A stretch of DNA of 34,460 nucleotides from a virus. Position numbers and translations under genes: made by a program. The notes under the pieces are model-generated. The model was not told the origin of the DNA, did no database searches, and worked only from the letters and a program-made list of their open reading frames with translations. Positions 1,732 to 34,311 of the stretch are shown here, piece after piece. Location: positions 1-34,460 of IMG/VR virus record IMGVR_UViG_3300027985_000063; one strand, given 5' to 3'. Within the stretch, counting starts at the first letter, position 1, and every line of letters starts with the position of its first letter.

Positions 1732-3217
1732 CTTGATTCATGGTTTTTGTGCATCTCTCTTAGCTAAACGCTTTGATAATGCTGTGAGAACTCCTCAGTT
1801 TCACTTGGATTTGTGGAATTACTTCTGTGACCCACATCCTCTTGTAGCTATTGCTGCTCCTCGTGGTCATGGTAAATCTACTGCTATGACACATGCATGT
1901 ACACTTGCTAGTGTACTCTTTAGAGATAGACGATTTGTTGTCATTGTCTCTGATACAGAATCTCAAGCTAGTAACTTCTTGAATGATATGAAAGAGGAGT
2001 TACGGAATAATGATGACTTGATTGAATTATTCCAAGTTAAGGGATTCAAGAAAGATACAGAAACTGATATTATTGTGGAACTAGCTGATGGGCACACGTT
2101 CCGTATTATGGTTCGAGGTGCTGAACAGCGTGTTCGTGGTCTTAAATGGATGCAAATGCGTCCTGATTTGATTATCTGTGATGATTTGGAAGGCGACGAA
2201 CAAGTTCAAAACAAGGATAGGCGAGAGAAATTTCGTAAATGGTTTAATGGCGCTTTACTTCCTTGTCGGTCTAAGCATGGAATTGTTAGAATTGTGGGCA
2301 CCGTTCTTCATTTGGACAGTCTTCTCAATCGTCTTCTTCCTGAAGATAGCCATCCGTCTACAGTAAATGAGCCATTAAAGTCTTGGAGTAAAGCTAGAAC
2401 TCCTTGGAAATCTGTGAGATACCGTGCTCATAATGAAGATTTCTCTAAAATCCTCTGGCCTGAGATGTACACACCTGATTTCTTCCGTTCCAAGAAGGAA
2501 GACCTTACAAATCAAGGTTTGGCTGATGTATATGCTCAAGAATACTTGAATTATCCTATTGATGAGTCCAGTGCTTTCTTCAAACGGGATGATTTCTTTG
2601 AAATCCCTGAATATACTCTGAGAAATATTGAAGAGGGTAAGCAAAGAGTCAACTATTATGCTGCTACTGACTTTGCTATCAGTACTCAAGAACGTTCAGA
2701 CTTTACTGTAATTGCTATTGCGGCAGTAGATGACAAAGGAATTTTAAATCTAGTTGATATTAGAAGAGGTAGATGGGATTCTCTTCAGATTCTAGATGAA
2801 ATGTTTGCAGTTCATAAGAAATACGACCCAGAACTGTTCGTTGTAGAACGAGGAGCTATTGAAAAGGCTCTTGGCCCTATGATTAGAGCAGAAATGGTCT
2901 CTCGTGGAATGTACATGAGACTGCATCCTATGACTCCTACCAAGGATAAGACAGCTCGTGCTAGAAGTATTCAAGCAAGATTGAGAGCTGGTGGTATTAA
3001 ATTCAATAAAGGGGCCTATTGGTACTCTGAGTTTGAAGATGAAATGGCTAGATTTCCTCGTGCTAGACACGATGACCAAGTTGATGCTGTTTCTTGGTTA
3101 GGTTTAGTCATTGACGAAATGCATAATGCTCTTTCTCCTGAAGAAATTGAAGAAGAAGAGTACTATTATGAAATGGGACAAGAGCCTGCTGGCAGGTCTT
3201 CTATAACAGGATATTGA
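1715..3217 (+). CDS. terL: Terminase large subunit
   Basis: ATP-driven packaging motor and headful/cos nuclease. The 500-aa product has Walker A APRGHGKST (48-56), Walker B LIICDDLE (152-159), a likely coupling segment around VGTVLH (194-199), and an RNase H-like nuclease domain with acidic residues D319, E378 and D453/D454/D457 (RHDDQVDA). Length is normal for the family. The start at 1715 lies within the end of the HNH gene. Only a weak GAG lies upstream, so translation may be coupled to the endonuclease. The N-terminus is a second copy of the sequence at 1251. Confidence 0.95.
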   Translation: MKITSDLIHGFCASLLAKRFDNAVRTPQFHLDLWNYFCDPHPLVAIAAPRGHGKSTAMTHACTLASVLFRDRRFVVIVSDTESQASNFLNDMKEELRNNDDLIELFQVKGFKKDTETDIIVELADGHTFRIMVRGAEQRVRGLKWMQMRPDLIICDDLEGDEQVQNKDRREKFRKWFNGALLPCRSKHGIVRIVGTVLHLDSLLNRLLPEDSHPSTVNEPLKSWSKARTPWKSVRYRAHNEDFSKILWPEMYTPDFFRSKKEDLTNQGLADVYAQEYLNYPIDESSAFFKRDDFFEIPEYTLRNIEEGKQRVNYYAATDFAISTQERSDFTVIAIAAVDDKGILNLVDIRRGRWDSLQILDEMFAVHKKYDPELFVVERGAIEKALGPMIRAEMVSRGMYMRLHPMTPTKDKTARARSIQARLRAGGIKFNKGAYWYSEFEDEMARFPRARHDDQVDAVSWLGLVIDEMHNALSPEEIEEEEYYYEMGQEPAGRSSITGY

Positions 3218-3224
3218 GATACTA

Positions 3225-5243
3225 ATGGAATTCGAAACTAAATTTAAACTCGCTGACATTCTTGCTTCGGATAACCTTGCAGAAGACCTATCTGATAGAG
3301 ACTTAGGAACTCTTGGCATGGAAGTAGTTAGAAACTACGAGATGGATAAGACTAGTCGTGTAGAATGGGAACGAAGAGTTAAAGATGCTCTTGACCTAGC
3401 CCTGCAGGTTGTTCAGAAGAAGTCTTTTCCTTGGCCTGATGCTTCTAATATTAAGTTTCCTTTGATTACAATCGCTGCTTTGCAGTATCATGCTAGGGCT
3501 TATCCAGCATTGATTCCGGGCAGCGATATTGTTAAATGTAAGGTTGTTGGAATTGATTCTGAAGGCAAAGAAGAACATCGTGCTATCAGAATTGAGAAGC
3601 ATATGTCTCACCAGATTCTCGAAGAAGATGAGAACTGGGAAGACCAAATGGATAAAGTTTTAATCACTCAGCCTATTGTAGGTTGTGCTTTTAAGAAATC
3701 TTATTACGACCCTACACTAAAATGTAATGTCAGTGAGAATATTCTTGCAAGTGATTTAGTTGTTGACTACTATACAAAATCATTCGAAACTGCAAGCAGA
3801 ATCAGTCATATTCTGTATTTGACAAAGAATGATGTGTATGAAAGAGTAGCTCGTGGTATCTTCCGTGATGTGCCGATATTTGAACCTAACGTCGTTCAAC
3901 AGGATACCTTAACACTAGCTAGAAATAAAGAACAAGGTTCTGAACCCGGACAACATGATGATTCTCGTCCCGGAATGTTCATTGAACAGCACTTATTTTT
4001 GGACTTAGACTGTGATGGATATGAAGAACCATATATTGCGGTAGTTCATAAAGAAAGTAAAACAGTAGTTCGTTTGGTAGCAAGATTCTTCCCTTCTAGT
4101 GTTGAGTTTTCTACAAAAGAAAAAGACAAGATTGTTTCTATTAAAGGTGAACAATACTTTACCAAGTATCCTTTTATCCCTTCTCCTGATGGTGGTTTCT
4201 ATGACTTAGGATTTGGTGCCTTACTAGGACCTCTGAATGAAAGTATTAATACTCTAATTAACCAGTTGGTTGATGCAGGTACCATGTCTAATACTGCCGG
4301 TGGTTTCTTGAGCCGTGGTATTAAAGTACGTGGTGGTGCAATGTCTTTTGCACCTAATGAGTGGAAACCTGTAGATTCTACTGGTGATGACCTACGTAAA
4401 GGTATCCTGCCTTTACCCGTCAGGGAACCAAGTAGTGTTCTATTTACACTTCTGTCGTTACTCATCAATTATGGTGAACGTATTGGAGGTGCAGTAGATA
4501 TTATGGTTGGAGAAAACCCGGGCCAAAACACTCCTGCTGAGACTAGCAGAACTATGGCCGAGCAAGGTATGAAGATTTTCAGTGGAATCTTTAAACGCAC
4601 CCACCGTAGTTTAAAAGCTGAGTTTAGAAAGCTGTATCGTCTGAATCAGTTGTATTTCGATAAGGCCGTTAAGTTTGGTGATTTCGAGATTACTCCTGCA
4701 GACTATATTGGAGAGGTTAGAAACATTGTTCCAGCCTCCGATGCTCATATGGTGTCTGATAACCAAAGAATTAATCAAGCAGCCATGCTGACTAGTTTAT
4801 CTCAGGCTCATGGAGGATACGACCAGTACCAAGTTCAGAAACGAGTTCTGGAAGCTTGGAGAGTTCCTGATATTGAGCAAGTGTTACCCGACCCGAAAGG
4901 ACCTAACGCTATCCAACAAGCACCTCATTACAAGGTACAGGAAGCTCAGGTTAAGGTTGAAGGTAAGATGAAGGAAATCGAAGCTAAGATGCAGATGCAC
5001 ATTATGAAGCTTCAGCAAGAAGCTGAAGTTAACAGAGCTAAGATTGAACTCATGGAATCTCAAGCATTGGCAGCATTGGAACAAGCTGATAGTATACAAG
5101 CTACTCAGCAAATTCAATTGTTGCAGACTCAGATTAGTGCAGCAAAGACACATCAAGATGGTATTCTTGAGTCTCTCAGATTGATGCATGATATGAAACA
5201 AGCATATCAAGTAAACTCTCTAGAGGCCACACCGAAGGAGTAA
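3225..5243 (+). CDS. Portal protein (head-tail connector)
   Basis: A 672-aa protein immediately after terL, with portal-like features. It has a central region with conserved packaging-neck elements (segments around YDLGFGALLGPLNE and NPGQNTPAETSRTM) and a long helical, Gln/Glu/Lys-rich C-terminal extension (about 565-660). Such extensions form the barrel that reaches into the head in P22-like portals. It would form the dodecameric ring through which DNA enters and leaves. Gene order (terL, portal, small protein, chaperonin-like, scaffold) supports the call. The start has no strong Shine-Dalgarno and is 7 nt after the terL stop. Confidence 0.88.
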   Translation: MEFETKFKLADILASDNLAEDLSDRDLGTLGMEVVRNYEMDKTSRVEWERRVKDALDLALQVVQKKSFPWPDASNIKFPLITIAALQYHARAYPALIPGSDIVKCKVVGIDSEGKEEHRAIRIEKHMSHQILEEDENWEDQMDKVLITQPIVGCAFKKSYYDPTLKCNVSENILASDLVVDYYTKSFETASRISHILYLTKNDVYERVARGIFRDVPIFEPNVVQQDTLTLARNKEQGSEPGQHDDSRPGMFIEQHLFLDLDCDGYEEPYIAVVHKESKTVVRLVARFFPSSVEFSTKEKDKIVSIKGEQYFTKYPFIPSPDGGFYDLGFGALLGPLNESINTLINQLVDAGTMSNTAGGFLSRGIKVRGGAMSFAPNEWKPVDSTGDDLRKGILPLPVREPSSVLFTLLSLLINYGERIGGAVDIMVGENPGQNTPAETSRTMAEQGMKIFSGIFKRTHRSLKAEFRKLYRLNQLYFDKAVKFGDFEITPADYIGEVRNIVPASDAHMVSDNQRINQAAMLTSLSQAHGGYDQYQVQKRVLEAWRVPDIEQVLPDPKGPNAIQQAPHYKVQEAQVKVEGKMKEIEAKMQMHIMKLQQEAEVNRAKIELMESQALAALEQADSIQATQQIQLLQTQISAAKTHQDGILESLRLMHDMKQAYQVNSLEATPKE

Positions 5244-23561: not shown

Positions 23562-24122
23562 TTAGGTTACAACAAATTCTGGATGTTCTAATTGTTCTAG
23601 AGTTTCTCCAATAAATACTTCCCACAATTTATATCTGTGTCCAGTTCTCTGTGATATGATATTCTTCAAAGTCTTGTAATTGGTACACACGATACGTCTC
23701 TGCAGAAATCCTTCTGGTAGACAATGTTTTAAAGTAGTTACATCATTCTTATACAATTCCCACATTTCAATAAATGCTTTCACAATTTGTGGAGGTGTTC
23801 CTACTTCAAAGTCTCCTTGAGTTGGAGGACGTTTAGATAGAGTATGCATAGTAGACTCACTTTGCTTTGTTACTCCTGTTCTGTACGTATCAAACTCACT
23901 CCAAAAAGCTCTACTTGCTTCCACATCAATCCATACTTGGATTGACTCAAGGAATTTGTTATGTCCCCCATCCATGTGGGCAAGTAGTACAGCTCGTTTA
24001 TTCCCCTTTTCTTTTTGCCCTTTCCACCAAACTTCTGGTTCTAAAGACCTATCTTTGTAAGAATACGCCATACCACGGATGGCATGGTCGTATCCCGCCT
24101 CTTCTAGTACTTTTACATACAT
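23562..24122 (-). CDS. thyX: ThyX-like thymidylate synthase (divergent)
   Basis: A 186-aa product resembling flavin-dependent thymidylate synthases, which make dTMP from dUMP with FAD and methylene-THF. The region DTYRTGVTKQSEST (78-91) lies where ThyX has its RHRxxSxNExSxRY signature; only part of it is kept. LPEG (135-138) and a helix with TNYKTLKNIISQRTGHR (147-163) match the C-terminal nucleotide-binding part. It overlaps nrdA by 10 nt and ends the leftward operon, fitting dNTP supply. The divergence of the signature leaves open a related but different nucleotide activity. Confidence 0.65.
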   Translation of the reverse strand: MYVKVLEEAGYDHAIRGMAYSYKDRSLEPEVWWKGQKEKGNKRAVLLAHMDGGHNKFLESIQVWIDVEASRAFWSEFDTYRTGVTKQSESTMHTLSKRPPTQGDFEVGTPPQIVKAFIEMWELYKNDVTTLKHCLPEGFLQRRIVCTNYKTLKNIISQRTGHRYKLWEVFIGETLEQLEHPEFVVT

Positions 24123-25810
24123 GCTTCACATTCCCTGCTGGCATGAACACCAGCCATAGTTGTAATATAGTACAAGCTAATGATTTGTTCATCTTCAAAC
24201 GCCAGCTTATGAATATGACCAATCCACTCTTCATCCTCATTTGCAGAGAAGAACAGATTCAGAGATTGACTTTGGTCAACATACTTCTGACGTTGAGAAG
24301 CTAGACGAATTATAGCCTCTTGGTTGATTTCAAAAGCAGTTTTGAAGATTATCTTTTCTTCTTCTGTCAACCAATCTACACCTTGTACACTACCGAAAGC
24401 ATCAATTACTTCTTGAAGATGCTTCTTAGTGTGTACACCTTTGTCTTTCATCAATTGAAGAAGAACTGGATTAACTCGTGTTACTTCTCCTCCTGCTGTT
24501 AACTGAGTGTACACCATTGCTGGGTCAGGGTTGATACCTTCGCTGACTCCTCCCATGATAAGAGCTGTGGACTTAGTGGGAGCGATAGCTGTACAGTGAC
24601 TATTTCGATATCCTTCTTCCGCCCATTCTGTCTGTCCGAAGATGGACTGCAGATGCATAGAGGCATCATAGGCTTGTCGTTGAATAGAACTGAATACTTC
24701 AGTATTCCATTGGTGAGCGGCAAAGGACTCAAATGCAATTCCATTCTGTTGTAGATAAGTGTGGAAACCACATGCACCAAGACCAAGAGCACGAGACTTC
24801 TTAGTAAATTCTACAGCTTTGTGCAGTGCAGGAATTTTCTCAGCCTTCTCAATAAACTCAGAAGCCACACAATCAAGGAAGATTGTAGCCCAGAATACAG
24901 CATCAGTATCTTTCCATTCATCCCATTTAGCTAGATTCATAGAAGAAAGAATGCATGTAAATGTGTAGTCTTCACTAGAATGCAGACTGATTTCAGCGCA
25001 AAGGTTAGAAGCTTTTACATCCAGTCCAAGGTCTTTGTACGACTGAGGACGAAGGCGGTTAGCTGTGTCTACTTTGAAGTAATATCCACGTCCTGTAACC
25101 ATCTTAATCTTCAGTGTCTTTTGGTAACGTCGGATTGCTTCAGGTTCTTGTGCTTTTAGTCTAGAGATAAACTCCTCTGTTACAACCCATCCTACATTAG
25201 CATCATCAGGCTCAGAAAGAAGATAATCGGCAAGCTCATCAAAGTCACCATGCTCAATTGGTAAATATCCAGCCCATGCTCCACGCCTTGCTGTTCCTTG
25301 AGCAACATCCCGCATATCTTGCATGAATCCTTTAAATACTGGGAGAACTCCACTAGCTGTACCTCCAACTGAAATAGGAGTTCCGCGAGGGCGGATATCA
25401 CCAAGATAACCAGAAGTGCCGAAACCATACTTAGTAAGATTAGCAGTTTCCCTACGAGCACTGTAAAATCCATCAATAGAATCTTCAATATAACCTCCTG
25501 AACATGCTACCGGAAGCCCACGATTAGTCCCCATATTAGCAAGGATGGGAGTAGAAGGAGACAACCAACCATACCATAGAAGATTAAAGAACTTACTTTC
25601 TGATTCATCGTAGAGCGGCGTGTTTCGTAAATGATTTGCCGCTGTTTGAGCGATTCGTTTGTACTGTCCAAGCGCCGAATCTTCTGTGCCATACAAATAT
25701 TTTCCTTTGAAAAGTTGCCAGCCTGCCGTAGTAAACCAAGTAGGAACTTTACCATTCTCTTGTAGAGCTTTCCGCTCATCACTTAGTTTTTTATAGAGTG
25801 TGTCTGTCAT
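24113..25810 (-). CDS. nrdA: Ribonucleotide reductase class I, large subunit
   Basis: Reduces ribonucleotides to deoxyribonucleotides together with NrdB. The 565-aa product has the active-site triplet N269-L-C271-A-E273, the redox pair C103 and C286, the radical-transfer tyrosines Y547-Y548, and a C-terminal CEAC (561-564) that relays reducing power. It lacks the N-terminal ATP-cone of larger enzymes, so overall activity is probably not shut off by dATP, as is common in phage versions. It overlaps the MazG-like gene by 4 nt and thyX by 10 nt. Confidence 0.95.
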   Translation of the reverse strand: MTDTLYKKLSDERKALQENGKVPTWFTTAGWQLFKGKYLYGTEDSALGQYKRIAQTAANHLRNTPLYDESESKFFNLLWYGWLSPSTPILANMGTNRGLPVACSGGYIEDSIDGFYSARRETANLTKYGFGTSGYLGDIRPRGTPISVGGTASGVLPVFKGFMQDMRDVAQGTARRGAWAGYLPIEHGDFDELADYLLSEPDDANVGWVVTEEFISRLKAQEPEAIRRYQKTLKIKMVTGRGYYFKVDTANRLRPQSYKDLGLDVKASNLCAEISLHSSEDYTFTCILSSMNLAKWDEWKDTDAVFWATIFLDCVASEFIEKAEKIPALHKAVEFTKKSRALGLGACGFHTYLQQNGIAFESFAAHQWNTEVFSSIQRQAYDASMHLQSIFGQTEWAEEGYRNSHCTAIAPTKSTALIMGGVSEGINPDPAMVYTQLTAGGEVTRVNPVLLQLMKDKGVHTKKHLQEVIDAFGSVQGVDWLTEEEKIIFKTAFEINQEAIIRLASQRQKYVDQSQSLNLFFSANEDEEWIGHIHKLAFEDEQIISLYYITTMAGVHASRECEACM

Positions 25811-26103
25811 TTTTCTTTTACAAAAATTCCATTAATCATCTTGCCTTTACGGTCTTTGATTTCTTCCCATGCTGAGTCAATACAATACTCAACATTAACT
25901 CCATATTGAGATGAAAGAATAGTGAGAACCACAATCATGTCTCCAATTGCATCTTTAATCTCTGGAAGGTTATCTTTTCCAATAGCATTACCTAATTCTC
26001 CAAACTCTTCTGCTAGTTTCAAGAATTGTTTTTCTGCGCTAGTACCAGTAATTAAATTACGGTCCATAGCCCATTGGCGAATATCATTAAATCGTGATTG
26101 CAT
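25807..26103 (-). CDS. MazG-like nucleotide pyrophosphohydrolase
   Basis: A 98-aa single-domain product with the all-alpha NTP-PPase pattern: EEFGE (32-36) and EIKDAIGD (48-55) supply the EExxE and ExxD metal ligands. It would hydrolyse NTPs or dNTPs to monophosphates. Its place between nrdA and nrdB suggests removal of non-canonical nucleotides or provision of dUMP for thymidylate synthesis. Phage MazG has also been linked to lowering ppGpp, which cannot be judged here. It overlaps nrdB by 17 nt. Confidence 0.85.
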   Translation of the reverse strand: MQSRFNDIRQWAMDRNLITGTSAEKQFLKLAEEFGELGNAIGKDNLPEIKDAIGDMIVVLTILSSQYGVNVEYCIDSAWEEIKDRKGKMINGIFVKEK

Positions 26104-27073
26104 TTATGTCCTTATATGTGAAACTTGATTCATCCCATTGACGATGATAACTATTACCTACTCCTGAGAATTGGTCATTGAACATGAATCCATTGATTCC
26201 ATCATAAAACCATTTAGCAATAGGGTTATATGTTATCTCGAATATTGTAGGTAAACCCAGTTGGATTAAACAGATATTAATACGAGATTGTACAAAGTTC
26301 TTCATTTGATGAGCAGTGATTCCCTCAATGTCATCTTTTTCAAATACCATGTCAATGATTCTTTCTTCATGAGCATAGATATTTTTAGCAATTTCTACAA
26401 TATATTTATACAGATTTTCCAATTCTTCCTCATTTGGTTGGATTTCTAACAAATATTGTTTGAACATTGCTGCACCAGCTTGACTGTGCAGATTCTCATC
26501 TCGTACAGAAAAGTTAATTCCTCTTACTACATTAGTTAATTTGTTCTTTCCTGCTGATTGGAAATGTTTTAGGAAAGCAAAGCTACTGTAAAGTACAGCA
26601 CCTTCAATGAAAGAGAATCCAGCTAGACTCAAAAGGTCGTCAGGATGATTAATGATTTTGTCAATACTTTCCATGCGAGCAGACAGTACATCATCTTTTA
26701 CATATGAAAGATAGAATTCATCATTATCCAAATGAAGTAATTCGTTCAATTTAGAATAGAAAGGTTTATGAATTGCCAATTCCACCATGCTGAAAGTAGC
26801 AGCCATGCGTTGGAATTCTGGACGTTTAAACCTTTGCATAAAGTGATTACCCCAATACTCACTTCCAGCTCGAAGTTCATATAGAGAGAACAACTTCAAA
26901 GTAGTTATGACTCCGTGCTTTTCTCCTTCAGTCATATTGACGAGAATGTCTTGGATATCTTTCTCTACTTTGATTTCATCTGCTGTCCAGAATACTTTTA
27001 GTTGCTCATCCGCAAAGTTCACAGCCCACGGATAAATCGTTTCTAATGTCTCAACTGTGTCCGTCAGTCTCAT
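26087..27073 (-). CDS. nrdB: Ribonucleotide reductase class I, small subunit
   Basis: The 328-aa product is a ferritin-like R2 radical subunit. Candidate metal ligands are E66, E98, H102, E157, E193 and H196, and Y106 occupies the radical-tyrosine position relative to H102. The second half-site RDENLH (191-196) has the usual ExxH spacing, but the first site reads E-L-A-I-H, one residue longer. The C-terminus (FTYKDINAI) has the acidic/aromatic tail that docks on NrdA. It overlaps the upstream 80-aa gene by 23 nt. Confidence 0.92.
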   Translation of the reverse strand: MRLTDTVETLETIYPWAVNFADEQLKVFWTADEIKVEKDIQDILVNMTEGEKHGVITTLKLFSLYELRAGSEYWGNHFMQRFKRPEFQRMAATFSMVELAIHKPFYSKLNELLHLDNDEFYLSYVKDDVLSARMESIDKIINHPDDLLSLAGFSFIEGAVLYSSFAFLKHFQSAGKNKLTNVVRGINFSVRDENLHSQAGAAMFKQYLLEIQPNEEELENLYKYIVEIAKNIYAHEERIIDMVFEKDDIEGITAHQMKNFVQSRINICLIQLGLPTIFEITYNPIAKWFYDGINGFMFNDQFSGVGNSYHRQWDESSFTYKDINAITI

Positions 27074-27656: not shown

Positions 27657-27885
27657 TGTATTTACTTTCTAGTTCAATGATTAGTTCTAATGTATGGATA
27701 GCTTTTTGCAAATCCTTAATTCCTGCTTTATTTCTCCATCTTGTGATGTACTTAATTGCATTACTTTCCAAGAAAGGAAGGTTATTAGCAAAAGCATATT
27801 CTGCAGGTTGTATTTTTAAATGTTTATAGTGATTGCCGTCAACTTGGACGGCAAGAGCACTTGTTTTACTGGTCCCTTCAGACAC
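27637..27885 (-). CDS. DUF3310 protein (82 aa), GTG start
   Basis: The pattern VDGNHYKHLKIQPAEYAFAN...AIKYITRWRNKAGIKDLQKAIHTLELII is typical of DUF3310, a small helical family common in phage replication regions and sometimes fused to nucleotide-modifying domains. No enzymatic residues can be assigned. It starts at GTG (27885), overlapping the exonuclease stop by 8 nt. Confidence 0.78.
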   Translation of the reverse strand: MSEGTSKTSALAVQVDGNHYKHLKIQPAEYAFANNLPFLESNAIKYITRWRNKAGIKDLQKAIHTLELIIELESKYNGTVTE

Positions 27886-28621
27886 TAATATATCTTTCTT
27901 TCATTGACAATCCTTCATTTCTAACAGACCTGAACCAAGAACCGCAATCTTTACACTGATAACGTTGATACTTACCAGCTTTAGTAATTGCTGTTCCTCT
28001 TCGTTGATGTCTAGTAGAACCACAATGAGGACAACCACAAACAATATCATCGTGAACAGATACATTAGGATGATTAGTAATCCAAGGAAGTAACCTGTCA
28101 TAGACACGTTCAAGAAGAATAACATCATTGATATTATATTCTTCCATAATTACCCATGCCTCTTGGTCCTTATTCATACAATCAATCCAAAGTTGGTGTC
28201 CTTTGTGATGTGTCTTCTGTCCTAGACCAAGTACTTTAGCAATATAGTCTAGTTTGTTACTTGGAAATTTGAATTGTCGTCTTGTTGTTCTTAACAAATC
28301 AATTTGTTTCACAGGAGAAGGAGGATTTAATCCAAACATTAGAAACTCTTTGTTTAGTGTAGGCATATCAAACTTACTTCCATTGTAATGCACTACAGCA
28401 TCTGCTTCGTCAATGAGTTTATGAATAGATTTAATCATCTTCTTAGGCTTGCTACGATAAATAGAATCGAAAAATACTTCGTCTTCTCCATACCATTTAG
28501 CTGCCCAGCACATTACATAGCCACTGTCAATAATTTGATTAGTTCCTACATTTTGACCCCACAAACCCCATACATGTACAAGGTTTGGAGCAGTCTCAAT
28601 GTCTAATAACAATATCTTCAT
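27878..28621 (-). CDS. DnaQ-like 3'-5' exonuclease with C-terminal zinc ribbon
   Basis: An RNase H-fold exonuclease (247 aa). The DxE motif LLLDIET is at 4-10, a second acidic site is in VVHYNGSKFDMPTLN (about 76-90), and the third is YNINDVILLERVY (about 163-175). Residues about 195-235 form a zinc ribbon (CGCPHCG...CKDCG). It resembles stand-alone YprB-type or PolB-exonuclease proteins that process DNA ends or proofread. It overlaps the 62-aa gene by 26 nt and lies in the replication operon. Confidence 0.82.
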   Translation of the reverse strand: MKILLLDIETAPNLVHVWGLWGQNVGTNQIIDSGYVMCWAAKWYGEDEVFFDSIYRSKPKKMIKSIHKLIDEADAVVHYNGSKFDMPTLNKEFLMFGLNPPSPVKQIDLLRTTRRQFKFPSNKLDYIAKVLGLGQKTHHKGHQLWIDCMNKDQEAWVIMEEYNINDVILLERVYDRLLPWITNHPNVSVHDDIVCGCPHCGSTRHQRRGTAITKAGKYQRYQCKDCGSWFRSVRNEGLSMKERYISV

Positions 28622-30431: not shown

Positions 30432-30508
30432 TGGTCTCCCTTAGTTGAGTCGAACAACTAACCTACTCCTTAGAAGGGAGTTGCTCTATCCAATTGAGCT
30501 AAAGGGAG
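30432..30508 (-). tRNA. tRNA-Arg (TCT)
   Basis: Full cloverleaf: acceptor CTCCCTT/AAGGGAG, D-arm GCTC...GAGC, anticodon loop CTTCTAA (anticodon TCT, reading AGA), T-arm AGTTG-TTCGACT-CAACT, discriminator A and encoded CCA. AGA is a common Arg codon in this window. Only 1 nt separates it from tRNA-Gly. Confidence 0.93.
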
Positions 30509-30509
30509 A

Positions 30510-30584
30510 TGGAGCGGGATAGGAGAATCGAACTCCTTCTAATTGCTTGGAAGGCAACTGCTCTACCAAATAAGCTAATCCCGC
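30510..30584 (-). tRNA. tRNA-Gly (TCC)
   Basis: Acceptor GCGGGAT/ATCCCGC, D-arm with GG in the loop, anticodon stem GTTGC/GCAAT with loop CTTCCAA (anticodon TCC, reading GGA), T-loop TTCGATT, discriminator T and encoded CCA. GGA is frequent in the late genes. Confidence 0.93.
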
Positions 30585-30588
30585 AATG

Positions 30589-30664
30589 TGGCTGGATAGA
30601 TAGGACTTGAACCTATGACCAACGGATTAACAGTCCGCTGCTCTACCTACTGAGCTACTATCCA
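30589..30664 (-). tRNA. tRNA-Asn (GTT)
   Basis: Acceptor TGGATAG/CTATCCA, D-arm GCTC...GAGC, anticodon stem GCGGA/TCCGT with loop CTGTTAA (anticodon GTT), T-arm ATAGG-TTCAAGT-CCTAT, discriminator G and encoded CCA. It lies 4 nt upstream of tRNA-Gly. Confidence 0.93.
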
Positions 30665-31477: not shown

Positions 31478-32200
31478 TTAACCACATTTCATATTAACTT
31501 CCTCCATGTTTTTCCAGTCATTACCAATTTGAATTTCTCCACGATAAGGAAGATTAAAATCTTGTTTCCATAGACGTTTAAAATTCATAGGAACATCTTC
31601 GAATACAGAAGCAATAATGTCACACACCCATTGTACTTTATGGTCAGGACAATCAATCAAAATGGAATCGTGTACACTGTTAATCATAAGTATCTCATTG
31701 TCATGTTTGATACGATTGTATAAAGATACTCTTGTTAAAGCCATTAAATCAGCTTCTAGTCCTTGCACAACATAGTTCTTAATAGTAGTAACAGGCCAGA
31801 CTAGTTCACCTTTCTTATTTTTTACCATAGAGAATGCCCACTTACGTCCAGTAGGAATAGATAATTCTCTAGTAGTTGTGGCAGTTTTAATTAATTGTTC
31901 ATGCCACGCGTGTACTCCTTTATATTTTTTATAGAAGCGTTCAATTACTAATTCCCAGTCAGAAATAGAAAATCCACATTCATCAAAATCTGGGTCCATA
32001 GCAAACCCCGGGGCACTTCCTCCAAAAATAATACGAAAAAGGAAGATTTTAGCAAAGAGACGAGAAGGTAATCCAAATACCTTTTGGTTATCTGTATGAA
32101 GGTCGAAACCTTCTTCAATCTCTTTGATACCTACTGGGTCTTGAGACAGATATACAGCAGCTGTCCAATCAAGATGTTTTGCATCAACGTTTACTAATAT
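31478..32200 (-). CDS. polA: DNA polymerase family A, C-terminal half (palm/fingers), ATA start
   Basis: Carries the polymerase active site: motif A VNVDAKHLDW (D6), motif B R47, K51, F55, F59-G60, and motif C VHDS (H177, D178); numbering is from the ATA at 32200. Upstream the frame is open to a TGA at 32269-32267 without any ATG, GTG or TTG. AAAGGAG lies exactly 6 nt before the ATA, so this is the most likely start. The first ATG (31999) would lose motifs A and B. The N-terminal half is a separate gene at 33163-34311. The two proteins together (about 622 aa) equal one normal phage PolA. Confidence 0.8.
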   Translation of the reverse strand: MLVNVDAKHLDWTAAVYLSQDPVGIKEIEEGFDLHTDNQKVFGLPSRLFAKIFLFRIIFGGSAPGFAMDPDFDECGFSISDWELVIERFYKKYKGVHAWHEQLIKTATTTRELSIPTGRKWAFSMVKNKKGELVWPVTTIKNYVVQGLEADLMALTRVSLYNRIKHDNEILMINSVHDSILIDCPDHKVQWVCDIIASVFEDVPMNFKRLWKQDFNLPYRGEIQIGNDWKNMEEVNMKCG

Positions 32201-32206
32201 TGTTAT

Positions 32207-32213
32207 CTCCTTT
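32207..32213 (-). promoter_or_regulatory. Shine-Dalgarno deciding an ATA start
   Basis: AAAGGAG on the minus strand is complementary to the 16S rRNA 3' end, with 6 nt between it and the ATA at 32200. It overlaps the stop codon of the preceding 75-aa gene. Nothing else in its range could serve as an in-frame start, which makes this site the main evidence for an AUA-initiated polymerase half. Confidence 0.75.
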
Positions 32214-32439
32214 AATGATGACTCTCTACTACAGATTCTAATACACGATGACTTGATTTCATAATATCATACTTTCTTTTCAAAGTATCATAATGTTCAA
32301 CAAGTACGTGCCCCGCAAACAGCTCGGCACGGACTGAACCATCTAGGTAATTTACGAGAGCTTCCCGTCCTACTGCTTGGAGAGCCTCCTTGATTGCTTT
32401 CTTTGCTTCCCATAAGATTCGTTCTTGACATTCTGTCAT
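32212..32439 (-). CDS. Hypothetical 75-aa protein inside the polymerase locus
   Basis: A helical, mildly basic product with no Cys beyond residue 4. The N-terminal helix MTECQERILWEAKKAIKEALQAVG is amphipathic, and the end (KRKYDIMKSSHRVLESVV) could be a coiled coil. It overlaps the metallophosphoesterase by 4 nt, with AAGGA ahead of its ATG, and its stop overlaps the ribosome site of the polymerase C-terminal half, so it can couple translation of that half. No family recognised. Confidence 0.7.
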   Translation of the reverse strand: MTECQERILWEAKKAIKEALQAVGREALVNYLDGSVRAELFAGHVLVEHYDTLKRKYDIMKSSHRVLESVVESHH

Positions 32440-32942
32440 TGAAATTCCTTTCTGATTTCTTCAAAAGCGATAGGAGTATAGTTAATGTTTTCTACACTGA
32501 CATTAAAGTATCGGCTATCTTTTAGATTTTCATCATGAAGATGTCCGTGAATATTACCTTTCCACCTCTCTATACTATTCGGATGTATAGGAATATGAGA
32601 TAAGACCAATCTATCCAACACATGATAAGCTCTAATATCTTTAAAGCATTTTAAATATTGAGATGCTTTTAACTCATCATGGTTTCCTTTAATTAAAACT
32701 TTTTCTCCGTTCAGTCTTGAGAAGATAGAATCCATCTGAGTTATATTAAAGAATCCTACATCCCCTAAATGATAAACTTTATCAACTGGTCGAACTACAC
32801 TGTTCCAGTTACTAATCAACCATTCATCATGCTCCTCAATGGAATCGAAATATGGCCTAAGTCGTTCTCCATTTTTTCTTCCAAACTTTAGAATGTTTGC
32901 ATGTCTAAAGTGAGTGTCGGATATTAAAAAAATATTTGCCAT
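32436..32942 (-). CDS. Calcineurin-like metallophosphoesterase (168 aa)
   Basis: All five metal-binding motifs are present: SDTHFRH (8-14), GDVG (60-63), GNHDE (about 86-90), SHIPIHP (about 114-120) and GHLHDE (about 132-137). The product is a small single-domain phosphoesterase, close to bacterial YfcE/phage forms that hydrolyse phosphodiester or phosphomonoester bonds. The substrate is unknown; 2',3'-cyclic or capped nucleotides are possibilities. It is the central gene of the three-gene block that divides the polymerase, with overlapping junctions both sides. Confidence 0.9.
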   Translation of the reverse strand: MANIFLISDTHFRHANILKFGRKNGERLRPYFDSIEEHDEWLISNWNSVVRPVDKVYHLGDVGFFNITQMDSIFSRLNGEKVLIKGNHDELKASQYLKCFKDIRAYHVLDRLVLSHIPIHPNSIERWKGNIHGHLHDENLKDSRYFNVSVENINYTPIAFEEIRKEFQ

Positions 32943-33163
32943 TAATAATCCTCTTCTTCAGTTGTATTGTATCCTAATTTCTCCAAAATTTCTTGATAAA
33001 TTTGGTCCCTAGACCAATTAGAACCTCCACAACAATGTGCGATAGGAATATTAGAAAGTAAAACTTTATTATCTAATGTAACTGTAGCTCCTTCTGCGTA
33101 AGAGGGTCCACACGTTTCACAATCATTGTTATCGTATAACCATTTAATATGAAGTTTTTTCAT
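32942..33163 (-). CDS. Small Cys-containing protein following the polymerase N-half (73 aa)
   Basis: Starts in a TGATG overlap with the polymerase N-terminal half and ends in TAATG with the phosphoesterase. It has C15-C18 in DNNDCETCGPSYAEG and a C44-C45 pair in HCCGG, which could form one metal site. Similar small proteins occur in phage genomes, as far as I recall, with no function given. It is the first gene of the block between the polymerase halves. Confidence 0.7.
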   Translation of the reverse strand: MKKLHIKWLYDNNDCETCGPSYAEGATVTLDNKVLLSNIPIAHCCGGSNWSRDQIYQEILEKLGYNTTEEEDY

Positions 33164-34311
33164 CAGTACCTAGTAACAAATAAGTCTGCAATCTTCTTAT
33201 CGAAGTTTTGCATATTTGGTTGACTGCTAGATAAACGACCAGTGATAGCTACACATTGATTCAATTGACCATGAATTATATTCTCTTCCCAGTCTTTGTT
33301 TAGAATCAGTTTAGGAATTCCATGTAGGTAAGTTCCTCTTCGTTTTTCTAGTTCAGCTTGTTTCAGGATAAGTTCAACTAGTCGTTTAGCTTTTCCTCTT
33401 GGTCGAATAGATTTAAGAGTTGGTTCGTTTGTAGCGTAGTATCCTTCCTTTTTCAACTCTGAGCCTTTTAAAGGTGTGACTAATCGAGGCATCTCTTTCT
33501 GTACTATGATGTTCCTTGTTTTCTCTTTTGTTCGACCATCTTTGTATGTAAAAATGTAAGTTTCTTTGTCTGGATATTTTAAAATTCCTCCATAAAGAGC
33601 AGCACTAACATGGTCACCAGAACCCGGTGAGAATTGAGGACAATCAAGAATCTGTATCATCTCTTCATTGATAATGTCCAGTTCGCGCTGAATGTCATCT
33701 CCTAATTTAATAGAAGTTTCAGTGTCATATTTCATTCCATTTTGTTCAATCTCTACTAACGCTAGTAGGTCTTGGTTACATAAAGAGATTAAGATTTGTT
33801 GTTGAGGAGTAATCCTTTCTTTTTGTTTCATAAATAAATCATAAGTCTGTTCCACATCTTGACATAGATAATCTCGTAGAATTTGTTCTGGAATATCAGG
33901 AGTATCAATTCCATTATCCCAATATTCTGTTTTAACTACATCGAGCTTACCTTCCAATCCGTAACTGATAGCAGTATTATGGAGAGAAGGGTAAGGAATA
34001 GACTGATTCGATAACACAAATTCGACCACTTGGGCATCATAAACCCTTTTGTTAGAGAATGATAGGCCATAACGTATAAGCCAGTGTAAGTCGAACTTAG
34101 TATTAAAACCCACCAAGCAATCGTGCGCATCAATTAATTCCTGTATTTTAGTTAAGGATTCTCCATATGGATAGTTCCCATATTCGATAGGGAAATCATA
34201 ATAAATTCCATCGTGAGTGAGCATACCAACATAACATAGCCGATTTCTTTGAGAAAAAGGATTACCTTTTTCGTATGTTGTAGTTTCTACATCAAAGATT
34301 AGATATTTCAT
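33163..34311 (-). CDS. polA: DNA polymerase family A, N-terminal half (3'-5' exonuclease and thumb)
   Basis: Residues 1-190 form a DnaQ-like proofreading domain: D7-V-E9 (Exo I), N69 with D73 in GFNTKFDLHW (Exo II), and Y147-LCQ-D151 (Exo III). The thumb and start of the palm follow, ending in TGRLSSSQPNMQN and then LFVTRY and a stop. In intact PolA proteins two or three residues separate this point from motif A, which here begins the other gene. The half therefore lacks all catalytic polymerase residues. It follows a partial gene at the window edge. Confidence 0.9.
   Translation of the reverse strand: MKYLIFDVETTTYEKGNPFSQRNRLCYVGMLTHDGIYYDFPIEYGNYPYGESLTKIQELIDAHDCLVGFNTKFDLHWLIRYGLSFSNKRVYDAQVVEFVLSNQSIPYPSLHNTAISYGLEGKLDVVKTEYWDNGIDTPDIPEQILRDYLCQDVEQTYDLFMKQKERITPQQQILISLCNQDLLALVEIEQNGMKYDTETSIKLGDDIQRELDIINEEMIQILDCPQFSPGSGDHVSAALYGGILKYPDKETYIFTYKDGRTKEKTRNIIVQKEMPRLVTPLKGSELKKEGYYATNEPTLKSIRPRGKAKRLVELILKQAELEKRRGTYLHGIPKLILNKDWEENIIHGQLNQCVAITGRLSSSQPNMQNFDKKIADLFVTRY

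Follow-up and report, generated by a model that had tools for sequence, protein, structure and literature searches.

Two-gene DNA polymerases have been described in phages before. In the OM43 phages MEP401 and MEP402, a split family A polymerase with a small gene between its halves was published in 2023; the split was reported for most group I genomes of that study, its nature was left open, and an intron was thought possible (PMC10580990). In Aeromonas T4-like phages, the replicative polymerase is encoded by two genes whose products, gp43A and gp43B, co-purify, are active and are linked to homing endonucleases (PMC2988022). The nearest fused relatives of the enzyme analysed here are the intact PolA proteins of HMO-2011-type phages, which are encoded in a similar primase-helicase-polymerase order. 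A further system of relevance is T4 gene 39/mobA/gene 60, in which ribosomes bypass a 50-nt gap between matched GGA codons, with a UAG following the take-off codon.

We analysed a stretch of 34,460 nucleotides of viral DNA (IMG/VR virus record IMGVR_UViG_3300027985_000063, positions 1 to 34,460), hereafter the window. An earlier note on this DNA had described a family A polymerase divided just before motif A into two minus-strand genes, and the open reading frames, together with Pfam matches to both halves, confirmed this description. The locus comprised the following features:

33163 to 34311, minus strand: PolA N-subunit (3'-5' exonuclease, thumb and first palm strand), 382 aa, with an ATG start and ending in LFVTRY before the stop
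32942 to 33163, minus strand: 73-aa ORF with a weak phrog_8901 match and no assigned function
32436 to 32942, minus strand: 168-aa calcineurin-like phosphoesterase (phrog_547, E 3.7e-53)
32212 to 32439, minus strand: 75-aa ORF of no family
32207 to 32211, minus strand: Shine-Dalgarno AGGAG, 6 nt ahead of the presumed AUA start
32198 to 32200, minus strand: ATA codon, the C-half start inferred by comparison with homologues, at the consensus ATG position
31478 to 32200, minus strand: PolA C-subunit (palm and fingers, with motifs A, B and C), about 240 aa

PF00476 matched both halves, at profile positions 52-133 in the N-half and 154-380 in the C-half, and the Exo family PF01612 matched the N-half at E 9e-5, slightly below the Pfam cut-off. 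The N-half carried Exo I-III, the thumb and the TGRLSSSxPN motif, while the stop-free C-half frame (32203 to 31478, minus strand) contained VNVDAK (motif A), RLFAKIFLFRIIFGG (motif B) and VHDSI (motif C), so that the full motif set claimed for the two halves was present. The split point lay 5-6 codons ahead of the motif A aspartate. The stop of the N-half overlapped the ATG of the next ORF, and the gap was filled, as the earlier note had stated, by three mutually overlapping same-strand ORFs of 73, 168 and 75 aa; the second of these also matched Pfam Metallophos_2 at E 7e-6, slightly below the cut-off. Elsewhere in the window, we observed three consecutive minus-strand tRNA genes (Arg, Gly, Asn; 30432-30664), genes for the large and small subunits of ribonucleotide reductase (24113-27073), and an RNase H-like/PolB-type exonuclease domain fused to a C-terminal zinc-finger-like region (27878-28621).

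The window halves were about 50% (N) and 46% (C) identical to those of MEP401/402, a resemblance in both halves which argues that the split is not due to chance. The split site was the same as in MEP401, with homologous halves in separate genes, so the family A split, which had been thought new, was already on record (PMC10580990); the window differs from MEP401/402 in its gap content and its AUA start. The enzyme differs from gp43A/gp43B in its family (A rather than B), in the site of the split and in its occurrence across a whole clade rather than in a few T4-like phages. With the HMO-2011-type PolA the two halves aligned end to end, but that protein is one chain and has a DnaJ-like zinc motif N-terminal to the split region. 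A link between the split and this zinc motif was considered and rejected, as the motif does not lie at the split. In nine HMO-2011-type loci (L470, L471, L474, L476, L478, L479, L482, L487 and L443), the polymerase is seemingly cut elsewhere, upstream of the polymerase domain.

Related loci were collected by scanning viral contigs eight times and genomes once, and the named phages were added. The 294 clade loci obtained formed 151 clusters at 97% identity, and the results showed an identical split site in all of them and no fused gene. The OM43 paper left the site and its variation unmapped, whereas here the distance between the halves was found to range from -17 nt (an overlap) to 3.6 kb (3,598 nt), with some gaps of -1 or +1 nt, and a single origin was tested. 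The gap held from no gene (overlap) to about eight genes, with ORFs in unrelated families among lineages. Five named phages shared the split: MEP401 and MEP402 (Methylophilales; one 77-aa ORF between the halves), MW202796 (halves 3.6 kb apart, with a cytosine methyltransferase in between), MW202697 (a single R67-DHFR-like ORF) and Alcaligenes phage QDWS535 (halves overlapping by 1 nt). A host search of GTDB genomes returned only two contigs of one MAG. When 56 split and 12 fused polymerases were placed in one tree, a 100/100 branch separated the two groups, consistent with a single origin of the split, which is most likely; the window formed a long, lone branch within the split clade, with a nearest identity of 52%. 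Comparison of split and fused loci thus bore out a divided gene throughout the clade and fused genes in HMO-2011-type relatives, but not a split private to the window. Nor was the gene split by the three-gene block, as had been proposed: because the split is ancestral to the clade and the gap contents vary, the three window genes are later, replaceable passengers. The gap was also considered as the source of a third subunit, a candidate that we rejected; a small ORF family upstream of the C-half occurs in about 86 loci and is missing from most others, and its likeness to the 75-aa ORF of the window was not significant.

Group I introns are frequent in phage polymerase genes, and one is present in the relative L227 (6096-6770; Rfam E 2e-6), where it interrupts motif B of the C-half gene and is accompanied by an HNH-like ORF. 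The gap could accordingly be a self-splicing intron, as suggested for MEP401/402, with the mature polymerase a single chain. We consider this highly improbable. Searched with Rfam at a threshold as lax as E 1, the window gap gave no match to an intron core, while the same settings detected the L227 intron as a positive control. Many relatives have halves that overlap or directly adjoin each other (-17, -1, +1 nt), so that there is no room for an intron. A stop codon ends the N-half, a separate start codon opens nearly every C-half, and the gap contents are unrelated among lineages. Loci L418, L421, L435 and L512 are likewise interrupted at motif B. Protein trans-splicing by a split intein, for which phage PolB genes provide a precedent (PMC6892783), is scarcely conceivable here: the N-half stops right after LFVTRY, the C-half starts at motif A with intein sequence on neither side, and the two halves correspond to adjacent Pol I residues.

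This last correspondence was obtained from AlphaFold2 single-chain models of each half (pLDDT 87.8 for the N-half and 92.8 for the C-half). The N-half model matched residues 313-643/644 of the Bacillus Pol I large fragment (Bst) with Z 16-17, and the C-half model matched residues 647-876 with Z 23. The two models tiled Bacillus Pol I without overlap and together gave the Pol I fold, the tiled segments being separated only by the two or three residues that form the hairpin turn preceding motif A. Since the halves flank this turn in the models, we infer that the palm would be built from both chains. In the N-half alone, the TGRLSSSxPN segment (355-370) was the sole stretch below pLDDT 50, as expected of an interface, because this surface would need its partner.

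Taken with the clade-wide pattern, these models suggest that the replicative family A polymerase very probably consists of two separately translated polypeptides assembled non-covalently, the split having arisen once in the clade ancestor. Proofreading exonuclease and thumb would reside in the N-subunit, along with the palm strand preceding motif A, and the C-subunit would start one strand later and bear motifs A, B and C. With the split in the turn of the beta-hairpin right before motif A, each half would hold one hairpin strand and neither alone a complete palm; the genes between the halves would have been gained and lost over time. The proposal in the earlier note of a two-subunit enzyme made from separate proteins therefore gained support from the structural tiling, the clade-wide conservation, the conserved catalytic residues and the lack of any other polymerase in the records searched. 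The Exo I/II/III residues and motifs A, B and C were invariant in 42-43 aligned split homologues, and dN/dS of about 0.05-0.16 for both halves in intact control pairs indicated purifying selection. An ancient two-subunit enzyme is likely, its assembly and activity being deduced from these data.

The opposing view, that the halves are remnants of decay and another enzyme replicates the phage, is very unlikely given the invariant residues, the low dN/dS and the conservation of the split throughout the clade. A second intact polymerase, which the earlier note had named as evidence of decay, did not appear: no PolB or PolIII was found in the window, a 34-kb fragment beyond which this phage might encode another polymerase, or in the relatives searched, and the PolA content of five complete relatives and three large contigs consisted of these two pieces only. 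The one feature in favour of decay is that the window C-half lacks a standard start codon, a point the earlier note had missed. No ATG, GTG or TTG precedes motif A in this frame, whereas the other intact homologues listed have ATG, rarely GTG or TTG, at the consensus start position or the adjoining codon. Translation of the window C-half appears to initiate at AUA behind the strong Shine-Dalgarno sequence, although the AUA could be an artefact of sequencing or assembly, or else an inefficient start. Within the reach of sequence and predicted structure, the clade-wide two-subunit family A polymerase appears real, and a known but unexplained observation is resolved. The result settles a formerly suspected intron, and an enzyme that works as two chains, divided in the hairpin next to the catalytic aspartate, would be a natural split Pol I-type polymerase usable for conditional or reconstituted DNA synthesis.

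In 14 clusters of relatives (L111, L066, L273, L278, L112, L343, L345, L190, L191, L192, L194, L195, L364 and L433), an HNH endonuclease ORF lay between the halves, inserted in the motif A codons, with a frame break just downstream. The window has neither cassette nor break, there being no endonuclease among its gap ORFs and motif A being in frame; motif A is also in frame in L308, with an unusual residue. The cassette endonucleases were phrog_3322 and related, apart from that of L433, which belongs to a different HNH family (phrog_374), and the ORF of L278 was reduced to a remnant. To the left of each cassette lies a truncated C-gene start, such as ATGTTACTACAAGCAGA in L111, followed by new sequence; in L273 a near-consensus promoter (TTGACA/TATAAT about 17 bases apart, read by eye) comes after the truncated start. 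To the right of the cassette, a ribosome site is found together with a recoded second start that includes motif A, and then a frame break before the LEW/LEV residues. Comparison of the filled L111 locus (cassette at 3093-3660) with the empty L105 showed 97.4% identity over 3.1 kb of left flank and 97.3% over 1.8 kb of right flank. The polymerase split itself is likely to have originated when a homing-endonuclease cassette entered the motif A codons, given that such cassettes still insert there in relatives and supply the downstream half with a new ribosome site and start codon.

Endonuclease and break occurred together in 14 clusters, the endonuclease only in 2, the break only in 4 and neither in 133 (Fisher p = 1.5e-14). 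The four breaks with no gap endonuclease, in L032 (about 5055-5080), L344 (7690-7730), L429 (333-400) and L498 (4430-4470), were perhaps left behind after endonuclease loss. Measured against uninterrupted kin, the breaks were as follows:

-1 at AAG: L066, L273, L278
+4, CTT T CTT: L111, L112, L345
+6, CTG TAA CTG: L343
+6, CTT TAG CTC: L194
+6, CTT TAG CTA: L195, L344
+6, CTT TAG CCC: L191, L498
+2, CTC TAG: L364
+2, CTT TAG: L190
+8, CAA ATATG CAG: L192, L193
+1, AAAAA: L032
+1, CTT TGA: L429
about +7, ill-defined: L433

Many of these breaks look like short ribosome hops, to judge from their codons. Ribosomes would hop -1, +1, +2, +4, +6 over a stop, or +8 across the out-of-frame or stop-containing insertion of the cassette, following the same logic as T4 mobA/gene 60. 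The two systems differ in scale, with net shifts of -1 to +8 nt here against the 50-nt T4 gap, and the cassettes of the relatives target polymerase motif A and carry their own start region. We lean slightly towards the reading that the cassettes of these relatives re-supply the ribosome site, the start and motif A, some of them adding a promoter, and protect themselves from cleavage by a tiny break that ribosomes hop; this would also serve as a model for the origin of the split. It is possible, if rather doubtful, that the breaks beside the cassettes are instead dead alleles carried on a selfish element. Against dead alleles, all 14 cassette clusters were broken, and the break reappeared in distantly related lineages, the 230-codon ORF being otherwise intact; CTT TAG was kept between cassettes whose endonucleases were only 33-41% identical. 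Nine of the 14 distinct junction types were bridgeable by one tRNA between synonymous take-off and landing codons, the figure for size-matched random indels being 8-18%. A stop codon immediately followed the take-off codon in 9/14 junctions; seven of these nine are CTT or CTC + TAG and may share ancestry, so that the binomial values calculated for these junctions overstate independence. The landing codons were mismatched in L191, L498, L433, L190 and L429, which favours dead alleles. Between L111 and L112, moreover, the N-halves were nearly identical and the C-halves 27 synonymous changes apart, a contrast suggesting that recombination at the cassette may have brought in a fresh C-half, so that the clean dN/dS may predate the break. 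Matched codons could also partly reflect the joining of a copied gene start to the resident gene.

Because identical junctions were recovered from separate metagenomes, sequencing error is an unlikely source of the breaks. Splicing of the RNA from the truncated to the re-supplied copy of motif A was rejected, as it does not restore the frame. Stop readthrough was likewise rejected: in the in-frame-stop class it would insert two residues between the motif A leucine and glutamate, the latter being the steric-gate glutamate of Pol I, and it gives no account of the -1, +1, +2, +4 and +8 cases. Stop-hops have been demonstrated with synthetic constructs, but for natural ones a 2016 review states that "no occurrences are known" (PMC5009743). 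If the hop reading holds, the junctions would represent short stop-hops that occur naturally in an essential gene, and the T4 mobA/gene 60 strategy would have a second example among phages, and the cassettes would link homing endonucleases, gene splitting and ribosome bypassing in one recurring system. The recurring combination of endonuclease and frame break is the more novel part, compared to the split itself.

The two clusters with an endonuclease and no break were arranged differently. In L254 (3459-4150), the HNH cassette lies in the 3' end of the N-half gene, where a recoded duplicate keeps the gene whole, and in L227 the cassette directly follows the N-half. HNH ORFs were also observed in other genes of L235 (3522-4520) and L255 (3678-4480), flanked by recoded direct duplicates of about 70 nt, the same strategy of replacing the gene end as in L254.
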